NCBI GenBank assembly: GCA_015658495.1
Contig: DQOT01000241.1
Span: 1-12,738, forward strand
DNA: 12,738 bases
Direction: 5' to 3'
Origin: Fidelibacterota bacterium
GTDB lineage: Bacteria > Fidelibacterota > Marinisomatia > Marinisomatales > UBA1611
The position numbers and the translations under genes are program-made. Below, in pieces: positions 279-12,738 of the stretch. The notes under the pieces were generated by a model, which was given only the letters and a program-made list of their open reading frames with translations, was not told the origin of the DNA and made no database searches. The stretch's first letter is position 1. Each line of letters starts with the position of its first letter.

Positions 279-1490
279 TTAATCATGCTGTCTCCTGATA
301 AAGGCAGGGATTTGCAGATCCTGCCCGTAGATAACAGGAGAATCCTTGGTGTCGTCAAAAGTGAGAACGGGTTTCGGTTTAATTAGTTCTTCCAGTTTTT
401 CTTCTGTAACAACACCTTTTTGTGCATGGAGAGGTTTGTTCTCTTGTTCTTGCAATTCACGTGTATGTGGTATTGATGGCGTGTGTGTTTCAGTCCGTGG
501 TTCAAAATCTGCCACTTGGGAAGCGGCCTTTGGAATGTTGAATCCGGTGGCAATAACCGTCACACGAATCTCATCCTTCAGTTCATCATCGATTACCGCA
601 CCAAAGATGATATTGGCAGAAGGACCTGCTTCCTCGAAGATAATGAGTGTCGCTTCGTTTGCTTCCATCAGTGTGAGATCACTTCCGCCTGTGATATTCA
701 CCAATACACCTTGTGCGCCTTTGATGGATGCATCATCCAGGAGCGGACTTGAAATAGCTTGTTGGGCCGCCAGGGTTGCCCGTTCTTCGCCGGAGGCAAC
801 ACCGGTCCCCATGATGGCTTCACCCATATTTTTCATAATGGTTTCCACATCAGCAAAATCCAGGTTGATCACACCCTGAACATTGATAAGATCAGAAATG
901 CCTTTTGCAGCTTGATGAAGGATCGTGTCCGCCATCTGAAACGCTTCGGTCAAAGTGGTGGATTTATCCACTATGGACATGAGTTTTTGATTCGGAATTG
1001 CGATAAGTGTGTCACAGGCCTTCTTCATTTCTGCTATGCCTTCCAGGGCACGGTTCATCCGTTTTGGTCCTTCAAAACTGAAGGGGAGTGTTACAATCCC
1101 AACTGTGAGAATGCCCAATTCCCGGGAAATTTGTGAAATAACGGGTGCTGCACCGGTTCCGGTTCCACCACCCATTCCGCCCGTAATGAACACCATATCT
1201 GCTCCTTCCAATAGGGATGTAATGGCTTCACGATCTGCTTCGATTGCTTCTCGTCCCACAGTGGAATTTGCGCCGGCTCCCAGGCCCTTGGTCAGGTTTT
1301 TTCCAACTTGGATCTTTTGTTCAGAAGGATTGTTGTCCAGGTCCTGGGCATCCGTGTTAATGGCAATGAAATCCACACCCTGCATTCCAGATGTGATCAT
1401 TCGGGTTACCGCATTTCCACCCGCGCCGCCGACACCGACAACTTTTAGTTTCGCTTTTTGTTCAGATAGACTATCAAACTCAAACAGCAT
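279..1490 (-). CDS. ftsZ: Cell division protein FtsZ (tubulin-like GTPase)
   Basis: FtsZ polymerises with GTP into the Z ring at midcell and recruits the rest of the divisome. The protein is 403 residues, a normal length. Visible motifs are [11 protein letters not shown] near residues 18-28 (nucleotide binding), the tubulin signature GGGTGTG at 107-113, and the T7 synergy loop NLDFADV at 209-215 with the GTPase-completing Asp211 and Asp214. The core ends near residue 320. A variable, hydrophilic linker of about 65 residues follows, and then the conserved C-terminal peptide ending [12 protein letters not shown], the docking site for FtsA and other partners. The ATG at 1490 has a strong Shine-Dalgarno sequence 7 bases upstream. 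It is last in the operon, 27 bases after ftsA, and ends in TAA. Nothing is missing or odd. Confidence 0.98.
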
Positions 1491-1497
1491 GATATTT

Positions 1498-1503
1498 CTC
1501 CTT
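1498..1503 (-). promoter_or_regulatory. Shine-Dalgarno sequence of ftsZ
   Basis: On the minus strand this reads AAGGAG, a near-perfect anti-16S match, 7 bases before the ftsZ ATG. It lies in the 27-base ftsA-ftsZ spacer, the only real spacer inside the operon. It is therefore the one ribosome site here that does not depend on translation of the gene before it. Confidence 0.85.
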
Positions 1504-1517
1504 GGTTACTGGTTTGG

Positions 1518-2795
1518 TTAAAACAGGTCTTCGATGGTATGTCGAATCTTTTCAAACAGCCCCGTTATGCCTCTACCTGTGGGCTGTTGCAACCGAACAT
1601 GATCGGTGGCATACAACGGCCAAAGTAAGAGCCCCATGACTGTAGCGTGACTAGGCCCATCTGCAATATCCTGGACCCCATCAATTTTTATGGGATTTCC
1701 CTGGCGTACTTTTACACCAAGAGAATTTTCTGCAAGTGGTAGAATATTTCTTAACTGTGCTCCACCACCGGTCATGACGATCCCGTATGTGAGAGGATCT
1801 TTAATATCTGCCCGGGAAATTTCCCGGATGACCATGTGAAATATTTCCAGCATCCGTGCTTCCACATATCGTGAAACTTCCTGCTCTGGAACAGATCGTT
1901 CCAATTGACCCGCCTGTGATGGGAGATCGATCTTCAATTTTGGAGAAGACATGGATGCCCGGGCTGATGCATACTTCATTTTAATTTTTTCTGCTTCATC
2001 GATACTGATCTGCAACATGACCGCAATATCATTCGTAATACTAGATGAGCCGATGGGGATAATGGCAGAATGACGAATCGCGCTACCGTGATAAATTGCT
2101 ATATTGGTTGTAGAAGATCCGATCTCAACCAGCGTTACACCCAATTCCATTTCATCTTTATGGAGTGTGGCCAACGCTGAGGCTAATGGCTGGAAAACCA
2201 ATCCGTCTACCGTGATCCCTAATTCTTCAACACAACTGACTAAATTATTCATGGCTGTTGTTGCAGCAGTAACCAAATGAACGCGCCCTTCCAATCGTCG
2301 TCCAGTCATCCCTATTGGATTTTTTATCTCTTCCAATGTATCCACCAAATATTCCTGGGGAAGTGTGTGCAGAATATCGCGATCAATAGGGAGAGAGACT
2401 GCTTGTGCAAGATCCAAAACCTGAAAAAGGTCATCATCATTGATGGCACGTTCTGTGAGACCACCCGTCACTCCGCTGGCACGATTCAATACAATGGCTG
2501 CCTGAGTATTCAAGCATCGGATATGATCTCCCGTGATCGAAAGAATCGCTTTCATCACTTTTGTACTGGCCATCAATTCGGCTTCCGTCATGGCTTTTTC
2601 AAGCCTCTCGATCAACTCATCACGATTGGTAATCGTTCCGTGACGAAAGCCTGCTGAGGGAATCGACGCAATGCCCAATAATTTGACACGTTTTGTTTCC
2701 GGAATGATTTGACCGATAGCACATGTAATTGTGCAGGCACCAATGTCGAGACCAACGGTGGTCTGGCGATCATGTCCGTTTCCGATAGGACTCAA
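1518..2795 (-). CDS. ftsA: Cell division protein FtsA (actin-like Z-ring membrane anchor)
   Basis: FtsA is an actin-fold ATPase that tethers FtsZ filaments to the inner membrane and helps activate septal synthesis. The protein is 425 residues. Phosphate-1 is VGLDIGACT (14-22), the SHS2/1C region lies around 85-180, phosphate-2 is VEIGSSTTNIAI (223-234), and the adenosine motif is VMTGGGAQL (340-348). The C-terminal LFEKIRHTIEDLF is an amphipathic membrane-targeting helix. The start is TTG, overlapping the ftsQ stop as TTGA, with AAGGA 8 bases upstream. The next in-frame ATG comes only at codon 69, past the nucleotide-binding loop, so TTG is the credible start. Odd: phosphate-1 has GACT where GTxK is usual, and phosphate-2 has E and SS where D and GG are usual. 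The identity is not in doubt. Confidence 0.96.
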   Translation of the reverse strand: MSPIGNGHDRQTTVGLDIGACTITCAIGQIIPETKRVKLLGIASIPSAGFRHGTITNRDELIERLEKAMTEAELMASTKVMKAILSITGDHIRCLNTQAAIVLNRASGVTGGLTERAINDDDLFQVLDLAQAVSLPIDRDILHTLPQEYLVDTLEEIKNPIGMTGRRLEGRVHLVTAATTAMNNLVSCVEELGITVDGLVFQPLASALATLHKDEMELGVTLVEIGSSTTNIAIYHGSAIRHSAIIPIGSSSITNDIAVMLQISIDEAEKIKMKYASARASMSSPKLKIDLPSQAGQLERSVPEQEVSRYVEARMLEIFHMVIREISRADIKDPLTYGIVMTGGGAQLRNILPLAENSLGVKVRQGNPIKIDGVQDIADGPSHATVMGLLLWPLYATDHVRLQQPTGRGITGLFEKIRHTIEDLF

Positions 2796-3559
2796 GATCG
2801 CCGTCCTTTTGCGATAATCTGGTTTTCATAGCGCATATCTAAATAACTGAAATCTGAAATTTTCTTAGACCCTAATTCTTCCTCGAATTGTTTCAAGATC
2901 TCGATTCGTGCCCACAATTGATCCTGACCGAGATAAATGTGGGTGGGATGGTCTGCTAAAATGAGTTCCATCTCATTCGTGGATGTCATTTTCATTTCAG
3001 ATAAATTGTCGTACAGTGATTCATATTCAACCTGAATTCGTGATAACCAATCGATGCATTCCCTTACTTTTACAGAAAGTACTTTTTTCCCCGCTGGGTA
3101 TAGTTCAGGCTCAGGATTAAAATTGGTCAGGACAGGTAAATTAAAATCACCAAAATTATTTAGGGTAGGGAGCACCACTCCTTCCGCGTCCAGCATGACC
3201 ATGGGGTCCATTTTCAAAAGTGCGATCGGTTGCCGTTCCAGTATCTCGATTTGAATTGTTCCCGGGTATTGATGACTCACACGAGCCGCTTTCACATAAG
3301 GGTGACTTTCCATGAGATCGCTGATGTCATTTAATCGAATTTGCTCTGGGCTGATGCCAATAATATTACCCAAGGTTGCTTCATAAACGCGTGATTCTAA
3401 CACAGTCGTTTTTCCAAATTTTACCTGATCGATGACAAGCGAATTCCTGAATTCAGACCACCAGAACGCTGTCCAGATCAGGGCAATAACCATGGAAACG
3501 GAAATGAACGAAATGATCATTCTGATCCAATTGATTTTTTGTTTTTTCTTACGCGTCAT
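2792..3559 (-). CDS. ftsQ: Cell division protein FtsQ/DivIB
   Basis: A bitopic inner-membrane divisome protein that links early and late division proteins through FtsB/FtsL. The protein is 255 residues. It has a short basic cytoplasmic start (TRKKKQK), one membrane segment at about 13-33, and then a POTRA domain at about 42-112 running from VIDQVKFGK through SHPYVKAARV to ERQPIALL. A beta domain follows with LDAEGVVL (123-130) and LPVLTNF (141-147), the usual FtsQ hallmarks. Its ATG at 3559 overlaps the murB end by 11 bases, and its TGA overlaps the ftsA TTG. No clear Shine-Dalgarno sequence is seen (AGGA about 12 bases upstream), so translation is probably coupled to murB. FtsQ diverges quickly; the call rests on domain layout plus position between murB and ftsA. 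Confidence 0.93.
   Translation of the reverse strand: MTRKKKQKINWIRMIISFISVSMVIALIWTAFWWSEFRNSLVIDQVKFGKTTVLESRVYEATLGNIIGISPEQIRLNDISDLMESHPYVKAARVSHQYPGTIQIEILERQPIALLKMDPMVMLDAEGVVLPTLNNFGDFNLPVLTNFNPEPELYPAGKKVLSVKVRECIDWLSRIQVEYESLYDNLSEMKMTSTNEMELILADHPTHIYLGQDQLWARIEILKQFEEELGSKKISDFSYLDMRYENQIIAKGRRS
2804..2808 (-). promoter_or_regulatory. Shine-Dalgarno sequence fixing the TTG start of ftsA
   Basis: Minus-strand AAGGA lies 8 bases before TTG 2795-2793, inside the end of ftsQ. The spacing is ideal, and no ATG or GTG in frame nearby would use it, so it supports initiation at the TTG. Confidence 0.7.
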
Positions 3560-8113: not shown

Positions 8114-9492
8114 GCTGCCCCCATCTCCACCACCAGGGATTTAAAATATTTTCCTCGCTCTTCAAAATTCGAAAATTGGTCGAAACTGGCGCATCCCGGA
8201 GATAACAATACAACATCCCCGGGAGCAGCCAGAGACTGGGCTGTCCGCACTGCAGAGTTAAGATCAGTGACTTGCACCGATCTTACCGCATCCCCTATTG
8301 CAGTGCTTATTTGCCCCCCGGCATCTCCATAAGAGATAATATCCCTTACATGACTTGACTTGATATGTGGAAGGAGTAGCCGAAAATCTGCGCCTTTGTT
8401 TCGTCCGCCAAGGATCAAAACAACCGGCTTTTTAAAACTTTGAATCGCCACAGTAACCGAATCCAAATTTGTGGCTTTCGAATCATTGATATAAGTGACA
8501 TCGTTGATGGTAGCGACGTTTTCCAAACGATGCTCTACACCGGTAAATGTTTTCATGACCTGCGCGATATGGTCGTCAGAAATACCCATAAGATTAGAGG
8601 ATGTGGCTGCACCGAGCATATTCGATAAATTATGTTTCCCGGGCAGAGCAATATCATCCACTGCGATAAGTGGATTTCCACTCAAAGTGTTGATGTGGTT
8701 TGAATCGAGAGAATAGGTCATCCCGGTACGCATCATACTGAACGGCGCTAATTGGGCATCGTGGCCTTCAACAGCCAAGGTTAACTGTGGATCATCAGCA
8801 TTAAAAACAATGTATCCATCGTCCCTCATATTTTTGGCCATTTTCAATTTCATATTTACATATTCATCCATGGAACCATGACGGTCCAAATGATCGGGAG
8901 AGAGATTTGTATACACTGCGATTTTTGGACAAAAGTGCTGGACAAATTCCATTTGAAAACTAGAAATCTCAAGAATGAATACCCGGTTTTGTTTTGGATT
9001 TATGATCTCTTTCAATACCCGTTCAGAAAAGGGTATGCCCATATTTCCGCCCATTATGGATTGTACATATTCCGATTGACACATTTCGGACAAAATGTAC
9101 ACCGTGGTCGTTTTACCATTGGATCCCGTCACCGCAACGATGGGTGCATCCGTGAACCAACTGGCGAATTCTATTTCCCCTACGATTGGTACCCCGATTT
9201 TCTGGGCTTTTTTCACAATGTCAGCATCTTTGGGAACACCCGGTGAAATGATCCAAAGATCTGTATCATAGATCTTATCGGAATGGAGTCCTGTTTCACT
9301 GGCAATATGGTGGTGCAATAAATACAATGCATTATCGCTGATTTGGAATTCACTTGATGGATCACTGCCAAAAACGCGGGCGCCGAGATGATTTGCCAAT
9401 AATGCCGCCGCGACACCGCTCATGCCCAGACCGATCACAGTGACCTTTTTATCCCGAATATCAATTTTTTCTCTGTTGGAAATATTGATCAT
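8110..9492 (-). CDS. murD: UDP-N-acetylmuramoylalanine--D-glutamate ligase MurD
   Basis: A cytoplasmic Mur ligase that adds D-Glu to UDP-MurNAc-L-Ala. From the chosen start the protein is 460 residues. The N-terminal Rossmann domain has VTVIGLGMSGVA (17-28). The ATP P-loop is TGSNGKTTT (122-130) with Lys127. EISSFQ (175-180) and NLSPDHLDRHGS (196-207) are MurD-type central motifs, and the lysines just after (around 215) include the expected carbamoylated residue. PGKHNLSNMLGA is the adenine-side Asn and helix. GVEHRLE (318-324) and NDSKATN (336-342) mark the C-terminal domain. The frame continues upstream to a TTG at 9546, but the ATG at 9492 overlaps the mraY TGA as ATGA and puts the glycine loop at the family position. 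No strong Shine-Dalgarno sequence is seen, so coupling to mraY is likely. Confidence 0.97.
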   Translation of the reverse strand: MINISNREKIDIRDKKVTVIGLGMSGVAAALLANHLGARVFGSDPSSEFQISDNALYLLHHHIASETGLHSDKIYDTDLWIISPGVPKDADIVKKAQKIGVPIVGEIEFASWFTDAPIVAVTGSNGKTTTVYILSEMCQSEYVQSIMGGNMGIPFSERVLKEIINPKQNRVFILEISSFQMEFVQHFCPKIAVYTNLSPDHLDRHGSMDEYVNMKLKMAKNMRDDGYIVFNADDPQLTLAVEGHDAQLAPFSMMRTGMTYSLDSNHINTLSGNPLIAVDDIALPGKHNLSNMLGAATSSNLMGISDDHIAQVMKTFTGVEHRLENVATINDVTYINDSKATNLDSVTVAIQSFKKPVVLILGGRNKGADFRLLLPHIKSSHVRDIISYGDAGGQISTAIGDAVRSVQVTDLNSAVRTAQSLAAPGDVVLLSPGCASFDQFSNFEERGKYFKSLVVEMGAA

Positions 9493-10592
9493 CGAATCTT
9501 GAATGTTGTGAGTGAAAAAAGAGCGAGTAATAGTCCAATAATCCAAAATCGAACGACAACTTTTGTTTCGGGCCAGCCCACCAATTCAAAATGATGATGG
9601 ATCGGTGCCATCTTGAAATATCGTTTCCCGGTACCAGTTTTGGTTCTTGTCCAATGGAAATAGGAAACCTGGATCATGACGGAAACCGCTTCCCAGACGA
9701 AAACGCCACCAATGATGAAAAGGAGTAATTCCTTTTTGAGAAGCACGGCAAGCGTGCCCAAGGCCGCACCGGTGGAAAGAGAACCTGTGTCTCCCATAAA
9801 TACTTCAGCCGGAGAAGAATTGAACCAGAGATATCCGATGCAGGCTCCAGCCATGGCTGCCGTAAAAATGGTCAGCTCTCCCGCACCAGGCAAATAAATG
9901 ATGTTTAGATAAGCGGAGAAATCTACGCGGCCCGAAATGTAGGCAATGGCCGCGAATACGGTGAAACAGATCGCCAAAAGACCCGCTGCCAATCCGTCCA
10001 ATCCATCCGTGAGATTCACTGCATTGGAGGTACCCGTGATCACAAGAATTACCATCAATGGATAAAGCAAACCCAGGTCAATTTCCACATTCTTCAGAAA
10101 AGGGACTGTCGTTTTTGTGCTGAATTCAGCAAACTCTGGTGTATTGAAGATCCAAAGGCTCACAATGGTACCGAGAGCGATTTGTCCTGCCATTTTGTAA
10201 CGGGCGATGAGTCCCCTTTTCATTTTTTTGACGACTTTCAAATAATCATCAATGAAACCAAAAATGCCCATCCAAATGGTGGCAATAATTATGATCTGGA
10301 TCATCGGATTGTTCAACTTGGCGAAAAGGAGGGTTGGGAGGAGTACAGCCATTAAAATGATGACTCCTCCCATTGTAGGCGTGCCCCTTTTCTTCATGTG
10401 TGATTCTGGCCCTGTGGGGCGAATTTCTTCGCCGATCTGGTTTTTGTGTAGTATGTGGATAACCCAGGGCCCTACGATGAAGCTTATGATAAGTGCGGCA
10501 ATCGCTGCGGATGCTGCACGAAAGGTGATGTACTCAAATAAATTGAGGGCAGAAAAGGATTCTTTAAGTGGTGTCAGGAAATAATACAGCAT
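9489..10592 (-). CDS. mraY: Phospho-N-acetylmuramoyl-pentapeptide-transferase MraY
   Basis: An integral inner-membrane enzyme that transfers phospho-MurNAc-pentapeptide to undecaprenyl phosphate, giving lipid I. The protein is 367 residues with about ten membrane segments. Signature elements are KKRGTPTMGG (67-76), the Mg-binding FIDDYLKV (113-120, Asp115/Asp116), NAVNLTDGLDGL (190-201), FMGDTGSL (265-272, Asp268) and the histidine motif KMAPIHHHFE (327-336). The ATG at 10592 shares one base with the murF stop (TGATG), a tight coupling arrangement. The only purine-rich stretch upstream, GGGGG, is 13 bases away, so reinitiation after murF is the likely route. Its TGA overlaps the murD ATG. It is intact and typical. 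Confidence 0.98.
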   Translation of the reverse strand: MLYYFLTPLKESFSALNLFEYITFRAASAAIAALIISFIVGPWVIHILHKNQIGEEIRPTGPESHMKKRGTPTMGGVIILMAVLLPTLLFAKLNNPMIQIIIIATIWMGIFGFIDDYLKVVKKMKRGLIARYKMAGQIALGTIVSLWIFNTPEFAEFSTKTTVPFLKNVEIDLGLLYPLMVILVITGTSNAVNLTDGLDGLAAGLLAICFTVFAAIAYISGRVDFSAYLNIIYLPGAGELTIFTAAMAGACIGYLWFNSSPAEVFMGDTGSLSTGAALGTLAVLLKKELLLFIIGGVFVWEAVSVMIQVSYFHWTRTKTGTGKRYFKMAPIHHHFELVGWPETKVVVRFWIIGLLLALFSLTTFKIR

Positions 10593-11041
10593 CAGTCTGT
10601 GAAAACCCCCTGAATCACTTTTTCCATAGTCATACCACGGGATCCCTTAAATAAAATTTTATCTCCTGAATGAATGAGATCTTTCAATGAATGGATTAAT
10701 TCATCATGAGAGTCGAAATGTTTGTGGTCAATTCCACTGTTGAGCGCAGAATCGGTGTGAATTGTATTTTCACCCAACGTAAAAACACCATCTAACCCCA
10801 ATTCAGCACATTTTTTTCCGACCTTGCGGTGTTGTTCATGGGATGTTGGTCCCAATTCAAACATATCACCAAAAACAAAGATCCGTCGTCCGTTTCCTGA
10901 AAATGCTTTTAAATAATCCAATGCCGCCAGGGAAGAGATCAAATTGGCGTTGTAGGTATCGTCAATGACGGTAATATCATCAAACTGCTTTACTTGGCAG
11001 CGCCCGGAAGGTGGCGTAAAGGATTGAATTCTTTCAATCAC
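10592..11041 (-). CDS. murF: MurF C-terminal domain (149 aa if begun at GTG 11041)
   Basis: The open frame after the internal TGA encodes the complete MurF C-terminal domain: SGRCQVKQF (domain entry), VIDDTYNANL (25-34), VFGDMFELG (56-64) and LFKGSRGMTMEKV (130-142). The frame is open back to the TGA, so MurF homology extends 21 codons further, starting near NSIAVSAIAV. GTG 11041 is the first conventional start apart from a CTG, and it happens to fall about ten residues before the domain boundary. GGGA lies only 4 bases upstream, which is weak. Whether it is translated separately, by readthrough or not at all cannot be decided from sequence. Its TGA overlaps the mraY ATG. Confidence 0.5.
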   Translation of the reverse strand: MIERIQSFTPPSGRCQVKQFDDITVIDDTYNANLISSLAALDYLKAFSGNGRRIFVFGDMFELGPTSHEQHRKVGKKCAELGLDGVFTLGENTIHTDSALNSGIDHKHFDSHDELIHSLKDLIHSGDKILFKGSRGMTMEKVIQGVFTD

Positions 11042-11098
11042 ATTATCCCATTCTACACCCAGCGTGACAGCGATAGCGGAAACAGCAATACTGTTTTT

Positions 11099-11107
11099 AA
11101 TAAATCA
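11099..11107 (-). other. Candidate 9-base in-frame insertion carrying the stop codon in murF
   Basis: On the minus strand TGATTTATT lies between codons for QNL and KNS. The family motif, and the murC and murD genes of this same window (HNVLN and HNLSN), have two residues between the two Asn; here there are five. Taking out these nine bases restores the spacing. The hexamer ATTTAT occurs twice at the site (11112-11107 and 11105-11100, 7-base period), as expected if slippage or a small duplication produced it. The exact borders of the insertion are ambiguous by a few bases. Confidence 0.5.
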
Positions 11108-11932
11108 TAAATTCTGGCTTCCGGTTGGAATGTCATGGGCATCCAGGATCAATGTGAGCGAGCCGTCTTCTTCCTGATGAATGTCAGCAGGAAAGTCGCA
11201 GTTTTGCGTAAGTCCGAAAGTTACTTTTTCACCGAAAATTTCCAAGCCCGCTACTTTATCATCAGCCAAATTCACAAATGAGATGCCATTTTCCAGTGCA
11301 CGGAAAAGTGCACTTTTTTCTTCTGTAATGGTTTTGATGGAACCGAATCCTTCCAGATGGGCCGGTGCAATGTTGGTAATGATCCCATGTGTCGGTTCTG
11401 CAATTTGGCTAAGCACTTTAATTTCACCGGGAACGCTGGCACCCATTTCAAGGACAGAAACCGAATGCTCATCATCCAATTGCAGGAGGGTGAGGGGAAG
11501 TCCAATGGTGGTATTGAAATTCCCCTGTGTGGCGTGCACTTTGTAACTGCTTTGCAGCACATGTACGAGTAAATCTTTCGTGGATGTTTTTCCATTGGAA
11601 CCGGTAATACCGATCACATGAATATCAAATTGGTTCCGCCAGGCATTGGCAATATTGCCAATCATACTTAACGGATCATCACCTTCGATCTGCTGGAAAT
11701 CCAAGTCTTCATTGATCTGTGAAACCAGGGCAACGGAGGCACCGGATTTTTCCACAGAACCGAGAAAAGAATGACCGTCAACCCGTTCACCTTTTAAAGC
11801 GATGTAGAGATCATTTTCTTGTATTTCCCGACTGTCGGTTGTTATTCCCAGAATAGGTCGATGAAGTTTTTTGCTGGTAACGGCTTTAAAAACTGTGGCA
11901 AATCTCTCGGGATGTTTGATGTCAATTCTCAT
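11105..11932 (-). CDS. murF: MurF N-terminal and ATP-binding part (275 aa, ends at the internal TGA)
   Basis: The part of murF that is certainly readable from its own start. The ATG at 11932 forms ATGA with the murE stop. The N-terminal domain holds ITTDSREIQENDLYIALKGE (30-49), the UDP-sugar recognition region. The central ATPase domain has TGSNGKTST (110-118, Lys115), GNFNTTIGLP (137-146), VLEMGAS (160-166) and NIAPAHLEGFGS (187-198), all in the MurF form. It stops after IPTGSQNL, before the last helices of the central domain and without the C-terminal domain that binds D-Ala-D-Ala and closes over ATP. Alone it should not be a complete ligase. The family call is firm; whether this product is stable is unknown. 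Confidence 0.75.
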   Translation of the reverse strand: MRIDIKHPERFATVFKAVTSKKLHRPILGITTDSREIQENDLYIALKGERVDGHSFLGSVEKSGASVALVSQINEDLDFQQIEGDDPLSMIGNIANAWRNQFDIHVIGITGSNGKTSTKDLLVHVLQSSYKVHATQGNFNTTIGLPLTLLQLDDEHSVSVLEMGASVPGEIKVLSQIAEPTHGIITNIAPAHLEGFGSIKTITEEKSALFRALENGISFVNLADDKVAGLEIFGEKVTFGLTQNCDFPADIHQEEDGSLTLILDAHDIPTGSQNL

Positions 11933-12738
11933 TGATATTGCCTGATGATCTTTAGATCGGAGTAGAATTCTTTTTCACCCATGATATCCTGATATTCTTC
12001 CCGGCCTTTTCCTAAGATAACGACTGTATCATTTTTTGCAGTACGATCCAGGGCAATCTTTAAACCTTCACCACGATTCGAAAAAAGGCTGAATTCATGC
12101 CCGGAAAAACCGGAAACCACTTCTTTTGATATTTGATCCGGATCTTCAGTCCGTGGATTATCCGGCGTCACGAAACAATGGGTCGCAAATACTTCAGCAA
12201 TCCTCGCCATTTCCGGGCGTTTGCTTGCATCGCGATCTCCACCCGCACCAAAGACCACATATATATTGGAATCATCCACAGACATTTCTTTTAAGGTACC
12301 GAGCACCTTTTCGTAAGCGTCGGGTGTGTGGGCATAATCCACAATTGCTGTTGCGCCGTTAGCGAGAGGGAATGATTCCATTCTTCCGGGAATGGCAGGG
12401 CAATTTATGATCCCTGCTTCAATGGCATTTTTATCAATGCCTAGGGCATGACCCACCGAAACAGCGGCCAGAATATTTTCAGCATTGAATTCACCCACCA
12501 GGTTTGAATCAATCTCATAGGTAACATTACCTGCGAGGATCTTTCCTTGAATCCCGGAAATGGAAATATCCAGATCGGAAAAATGAATGGATGTCCCGTT
12601 TGATCGAGAAAAGGTTAAGGTAGGTGCATTCGTTTCTTCTGCCATTCTCAACCCATTGGGATCAGACTCATTCACAATGGCTGTGGAATCCAGGGGCAAC
12701 ATCCTGAAGAGACGCGCTTTAGCCTGGTAGTAGGATTC
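11929..12738 (-). CDS. murE: UDP-MurNAc-L-Ala-D-Glu--meso-DAP ligase MurE (C-terminal 269 aa, partial)
   Basis: A cytoplasmic Mur ligase that adds the third stem-peptide residue. The frame is open to the right edge, so the N-terminal half, including the P-loop, lies outside the window; the ATG at 12702 is internal. The visible part begins ESYYQAKARLF, the MurE block with the carbamoylated lysine. GEFNAEN (82-88 of the visible part) is the adenine-side Asn element. PGRME (117-121), VDYAHTPD (133-140) and FGAGGDRD (163-170) mark the C-terminal domain. DNPRTEDP (193-200) holds the DNPR signature that selects meso-diaminopimelate rather than lysine, and GKGREEYQ (243-250) completes that site. It ends in TGA overlapping the murF ATG. 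Confidence 0.96.
   Translation of the reverse strand, partial: ESYYQAKARLFRMLPLDSTAIVNESDPNGLRMAEETNAPTLTFSRSNGTSIHFSDLDISISGIQGKILAGNVTYEIDSNLVGEFNAENILAAVSVGHALGIDKNAIEAGIINCPAIPGRMESFPLANGATAIVDYAHTPDAYEKVLGTLKEMSVDDSNIYVVFGAGGDRDASKRPEMARIAEVFATHCFVTPDNPRTEDPDQISKEVVSGFSGHEFSLFSNRGEGLKIALDRTAKNDTVVILGKGREEYQDIMGEKEFYSDLKIIRQYQ

Follow-up and report, generated by a model that had tools for sequence, protein, structure and literature searches.

An in-frame TGA in murF of a Fidelibacterota draft genome, with sequence error or very recent mutation as its most likely origin

In the stretch of DNA analysed here, murF is interrupted by a TGA codon between two halves that otherwise form a single gene. 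The question is whether the organism makes some use of this codon, or whether it marks damage to the gene or a fault in its deposited sequence. The window, by which we mean the whole stretch of 12,738 nucleotides, belongs to the draft genome of an uncultured marine bacterium, which has 1,787,588 bases on 388 contigs, a completeness of 81.67%, and a contamination of 5.01%. An initial annotation, made from the sequence without database searches, had offered four explanations: a real two-piece MurF, readthrough of the TGA, a recent lesion compensated by another ligase copy, and a strain or assembly error.

An interrupted murF in a division and cell-wall cluster

The three bases in question are tca on the plus strand and TGA when read on the minus strand, which carries murF and its neighbors; the coordinates first given for the codon were correct, and the strand, which had been left out, is supplied in Table 1. 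Read through the TGA, the frame scores 397.2 bits against TIGR01143, the MurF family, for which the cut-off is 288.6, with one TGA inside the match. The upstream 275 codons alone give 243 bits (TIGR01143 positions 1-231) and the downstream 170 codons alone 147 bits (positions 255-416), so that neither piece exceeds the cut-off by itself; the two match in the correct order, which is more than chance would give. The gene thus has the domains of the family in the family's order and differs from it in lacking a single uninterrupted frame, owing to the one internal TGA at codon 276. Direct reading and the family score therefore bear out the initial description of an in-frame TGA in an otherwise intact murF, as well as the claim that both halves lie in one frame, given that each piece matches MurF and that the Pfam domains are kept. 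At 446 codons, murF has the same length as its closest relative, with neither an insertion nor a frameshift at the site. A short insertion at the TGA was considered and rejected, since the codon alignment with relatives gives equal length and a Ser codon in 28 of 29. Solved structures related to an intact MurF protein (P0003) include 1gg4 and 4cvk.

Table 1. Positions of the TGA, of the two parts of murF, and of the adjoining genes in the window
Feature	Position	Strand	Content	Basis
In-frame TGA, codon 276 of murF	11105-11107	minus		direct reading; Ser in relatives
murF, whole frame	10592-11932	minus	275 codons + TGA + 170 codons + terminal TGA	
murF, upstream part	11105..11932	minus	275 codons + TGA; N-terminal domain and most of middle domain	PF01225, PF08245
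murF, downstream part	10592..11104	minus	170 codons + normal TGA stop; end of middle domain and C-terminal domain	PF02875
murE	11929..12738	minus	truncated by contig end; stop overlaps murF start	TIGR01085
mraY	9489..10592	minus		TIGR00445, 381 bits, over cut-off

The cluster in the window comprises 11 division and cell-wall genes, all on the minus strand, in the order murE, murF, mraY, murD, ftsW, murG, murC, murB, ftsQ, ftsA, and ftsZ. NCBIfam tests covered murE, both parts of murF, mraY, murD, and ftsW; the last six genes carry names that we presume from a reading of their sequences and from gene order. Like mraY, murD exceeds its NCBIfam cut-off. The murE gene scores 231 bits, below the TIGR01085 cut-off of 257.3 because it is truncated by the contig end, and ftsW scores 311.4 bits against a cut-off of 337.5; for both genes the family is the best or near-best match. 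On the minus strand, murE and murF overlap in ATGA (11929-11932), and murF and mraY in TGATG (10590-10594), where the last base of the murF stop is the first base of the mraY ATG. These start and stop overlaps suggest that translation is coupled from gene to gene in the cluster. Among named genomes, a scan returned three loci at 73-81% identity, all of them from metagenome-assembled Candidatus Neomarinimicrobiota, the group to which the draft is thereby related.

Codon 276 in relatives and in near-identical proteins

A search for murF covered 61 genomes, the source genome included, and found a match in 55. Near-full-length copies (>90% of the query) account for 51 rows, one per genome, and an internal stop occurs in the window's copy only. 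Four of the matched genomes gave partial or weak rows only (G010, at a contig end, G013, G025, and G056), and G037 has an extra partial murF row on another contig. We aligned the codons of the window with those of 29 relatives, using the loci returned by this search. In this alignment with close relatives, which the initial annotation had proposed as a check, TGA is found in none of the 29; 28 of them have Ser here, and the remaining one, from a genome of the same order, has Ile. TCA is the codon most often used for this residue (11 of the 30 aligned rows), and the nearest relative (L008) has TCT. Ambiguous bases occur elsewhere in the gene in five of the 29 relative sequences, none of which has a stop. 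In an alignment of 31 chosen related proteins, position 276 is an invariant Ser.

Protein databases hold even closer sequences. In a search space of 5.8 billion proteins, clustered at 90%, the matches listed include ten MurF proteins of 446 aa that are 97-99% identical and come from several sources and contigs. Each of them has Ser at position 276; their kinship to the window species is judged from amino-acid identity alone, and one of them, P0001, has no source shown. By a match to the flanking pattern, Ser is at the site in 124 of the 127 MurF proteins listed. The three without a pattern match are P0082, P0090, and P0123, the last of which has the Ser and then diverges. Three positions set the window apart from all ten, namely V173, N244, and the stop; the downstream 170-codon part has none, and is identical in amino-acid sequence to P0001. 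The stop thus looks private to this sequence, as no other sequence checked has it, and intact near-identical proteins exist.

No truncated protein of >90% identity ending at the site was found among the 120 of 206 matches listed to the upstream 275 residues, in a database where a rare truncated MurF could be hidden because of the clustering at 90%. P0101 (387 aa) is the only shorter protein above 90% identity among the matches listed; it lacks the N-terminal part and has Ser at the site. Among short homologues at 63-74% identity, P0122 and P0126 extend past the site with Ser, and P0123 is the divergent sequence mentioned above. A search of viral contigs for the murF locus found nothing. As a separate observation, P0121 and P0123 are MurF proteins that end in unrelated tails, SDAADE and SLIHI, which we take to resemble translated sequencing adapter; artefactual truncated murF frames are present in the protein database.

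The downstream part has kept its sequence. Between the window and L008, 19 of 63 codon differences are non-synonymous downstream of the TGA and 52 of 137 upstream of it, and changes assigned to the window branch number 1 in 168 sites downstream and 6 in 275 upstream. On these counts selection does not appear to be relaxed in the downstream part, which, with so recent a change, would say only that the stop is young. The initial annotation had read the lack of a second lesion downstream as a sign either of a very recent change or of continued function of the C-terminal part. The former holds; the latter does not, since the change is in no other sequence checked and the intact downstream part is thus no argument for function.

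Readings in which the TGA is used or compensated

A genuine two-piece MurF would obtain its C-terminal piece from a restart downstream of the TGA. Both pieces retain Pfam domains, and in-frame starts are present, the first four at codons 298 (GTG), 331 and 338 (TTG), and 357 (ATG). However, the placement of the domains by Pfam matches puts the TGA within the middle domain, whose match ends at position 167 of the 200 in the profile; PF02875, the C-terminal domain, begins only 34 codons past the TGA. The sole start at the TGA itself, in an overlapping ATGA, is out of frame and runs into TAA after two further codons, and a restart at codon 298 would lose codons 277-297. The gene therefore shows no break at a domain boundary with a start of its own, as a split enzyme would. 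Moreover, all 50 near-full-length relatives have the gene in one piece, a count that leaves aside the partial rows of G010, G013, G037, and G056, that of G010 being cut by a contig end. With the break inside the middle domain and no in-frame start at the TGA, we regard the two-piece explanation as exceedingly improbable. As to compensation by another ligase copy, a second murF over the TIGR01143 cut-off is absent from the assembly (82% complete), in which the DNA around the TGA occurs once, and outside the window there are weaker Mur-ligase-like matches on contig 310 (69.6 bits) and contig 140 (37.4 bits).

Could the TGA be decoded as an amino acid? The RF2 gene, prfB, is present (520.8 bits against a cut-off of 370), and TGA is the terminator of eight of the 11 window genes. 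In a sample of 335,281 bases (18.8% of the genome; 60 contigs and the window) it closes 75 of the 198 long frames. Recoding of TGA throughout the genome was rejected on these two grounds, release factor and terminator use, and TGA is a normal terminator in the source genome, with no sign of sense use. Among the 16 tRNAs found, which in an 82% complete genome are surely not the full set, none has a UCA anticodon. In bacterial lineages with reassigned TGA, the codon means Gly in Gracilibacteria and Absconditabacteria and Trp in Mycoplasmatales and others (PMC8629427); the main text of that survey makes no mention of Marinimicrobia. The murF case resembles these in having an in-frame TGA, and differs in that the codon is isolated rather than genome-wide and that RF2 is kept.

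Alternatively, a real TGA might be read by a near-cognate tRNA at a useful level, so that enough full-length MurF is made. According to PMC7918605, TGA is leaky in E. coli and S. typhimurium, prokaryotic in-frame stops can be read through, and in-frame stops under purifying selection are reported across prokaryotes; many such events are short-lived. The downstream part is consistent with continued translation, in that its single window-derived change in 168 sites is no excess over the four of the sister sequence. But with a change this recent, the absence of decay tells us nothing, and RF2, the common use of TGA as terminator, and the tRNAs found all speak against the idea. Nor is there any sign of conserved readthrough, because TGA was not seen at the site in the 29 aligned relatives or in the ten near-identical proteins. 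Readthrough, another of the four options, thus finds no sign of recoding behind it in release factor, terminator use, tRNAs, or RNA fold (below), and we consider it improbable. One further tRNA deserves mention. On contig 193 of the source genome (L066:1501-1575) there is a 75-base tRNA called as Ser with anticodon cga, and contig 78 has two tRNA-Ser genes, 89-90 bases long. A length of 75 bases is short for a serine tRNA, and the contig 193 gene may be mis-called or foreign.

Insertion of selenocysteine at the murF TGA was worth testing because the lineage has the machinery for it. A strong SelB match occurs in 20 of 21 genomes, the source genome among them (in the exception, G006, the best row is a shorter frame, 36% identical), and G001 and G002, both of the same genus, have tRNA-Sec matches of 58.1 and 67.2 bits, respectively, against a cut-off of 47 bits. 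In G004, also of the same genus, a thioredoxin-like domain carries a TGA where U-x-x-C would stand. In the source genome, however, selB is itself interrupted and no tRNA-Sec exceeds the 47-bit cut-off, the best match (45.1 bits) being located on a tRNA-Ser gene; none exceeds it in same-genus G003 and G004 either. In addition, the murF site corresponds to Ser in the relatives and to no Cys-equivalent site. The RNA 3' of the TGA folds with z +0.49, 134 of 200 shuffles being at least as good, whereas the nearest relative with Ser has a better fold in the equivalent stretch (z -2.27). The stretch in another Ser-bearing relative gives z -0.72, and thus fold energy does not go with the TGA. The fold-energy test is a weak one, since the candidate selenoprotein site of G004 itself reaches only z -0.52. 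Selenocysteine at this codon is, on balance, scarcely credible.

The G004 site is of interest in its own right. It lies on contig 36 (L158:5371-5373), where a TGA precedes P-V-C in a thioredoxin-like (AhpC/TSA) domain of a protein that also has LVIVD repeats and a Por secretion tail. From its sequence, this protein is a candidate selenoprotein, with the TGA where selenocysteine would be expected.

Sequence error, recent mutation, and what the stop means

Of the options first listed, only a strain or assembly error fits what was found, and beside it an uncompensated recent lesion; the two-piece enzyme, readthrough, and the compensated lesion do not. In the 335,281-base sample of the draft, by a screen that was not fully systematic, there are two further isolated interruptions, in a DinG-like helicase and in selB. 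The DinG-like exonuclease-helicase has an in-frame TAA (contig 120, L055:7231-7233, minus strand) that replaces the Glu before an A-G-T-G-x-G-K motif. This Glu is found in all seven relatives checked and in P0128 (940 aa, 99% identical, source not shown), which is the only DinG-like protein above 90% identity among the matches listed. In selB (contig 280, L091, ~1430-3280), a frame change yields frames of 465 aa and 208 aa, the switch lying near codon 436, where the same-genus matches end; in the 19 relatives with a strong match, selB is a single frame of 620-736 aa.

When the sample was screened with frames of G004, 47 frames matched at an identity of at least 55%. Internal stops were present in four of these, and a frame switch in none. 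Three of the four were short and were judged by eye to be shadow frames; the remaining one was murF. The G004 stretches used lacked its DinG and SelB genes. In the reverse screen, six of 46 matched frames had internal stops, all of them short and, by eye, shadow frames. A scan for same-frame junctions gave 27 in the sample, two of which, murF and DinG, were judged by eye to be breaks within one gene; on 789,291 bases of G004 it gave 65, of which only those 13 whose first Met comes late were read by eye, and the three interruptions of the source draft are accordingly a count, not an excess over a comparison genome.

Such cases have a precedent. A significant proportion of the interrupted genes in the deposited genome of M. 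smegmatis are reported to have been sequencing errors (PMC1852416). Like those interrupted coding sequences, the window has a conserved gene with a single in-frame stop or frameshift and intact orthologues. It differs in that the interrupted gene should be an essential one.

The explanation towards which we lean, from comparison of the sequences, is that the murF TGA goes back to one wrong base in the consensus or assembly, or else to a minority read variant that was promoted to the consensus. We infer an error, and not a true mutation of the sampled cells, from the ten proteins at 97-99% identity with Ser, the presence of the stop in one of 51 near-full-length rows, and the fragmented draft with its two other isolated interruptions. 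MurF is expected to be essential, so that its real loss should be lethal. The private V173 and N244 in the same murF count against an error; both could be strain variation, which makes real private changes plausible too. If the TGA is an error, murF would be full-length in the organism and the TGA would exist only in the draft consensus, with neither recoding nor a split enzyme involved.

The rival that we take seriously, while holding it doubtful, is a real and very recent nonsense mutation that some of the sampled population carries. The affected cells would have a truncated MurF and, since the start of mraY overlaps the stop of murF, probably a reduced translation of mraY. Their lineage would not last long, unless misreading at a low level rescued it. 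A single base separates TGA from TCA, the commonest Ser codon at the site, and the two other private amino-acid differences, the lack of any further lesion downstream, and the identity of the downstream part to P0001 all fit such a mutation. Nevertheless, the ancestral codon may have been other than TCA, given that the nearest relative has TCT; there is no second murF over the cut-off to support cells without an enzyme expected to be essential; and the isolated interruptions in other conserved genes fit sequence error at least as well.

Among the titles listed in literature searches, none describes such an in-frame stop in murF. A natural Neomarinimicrobiota population with TGA in its only murF and tolerated near-cognate readthrough at a conserved Ser site is, in our estimate, very improbable; if the TGA did exist in the cells and were tolerated, nature would offer an example of readthrough in an essential gene, but nothing here requires it. 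The murF stop is more likely ordinary: because near-identical full-length copies exist elsewhere, its most likely origin is an error in the sequence or a mutation of very recent date. The case carries a caution: when a draft genome shows a lone in-frame stop in an essential gene, near-identical full-length proteins should be consulted first, and only then should recoding or a split gene be put forward.
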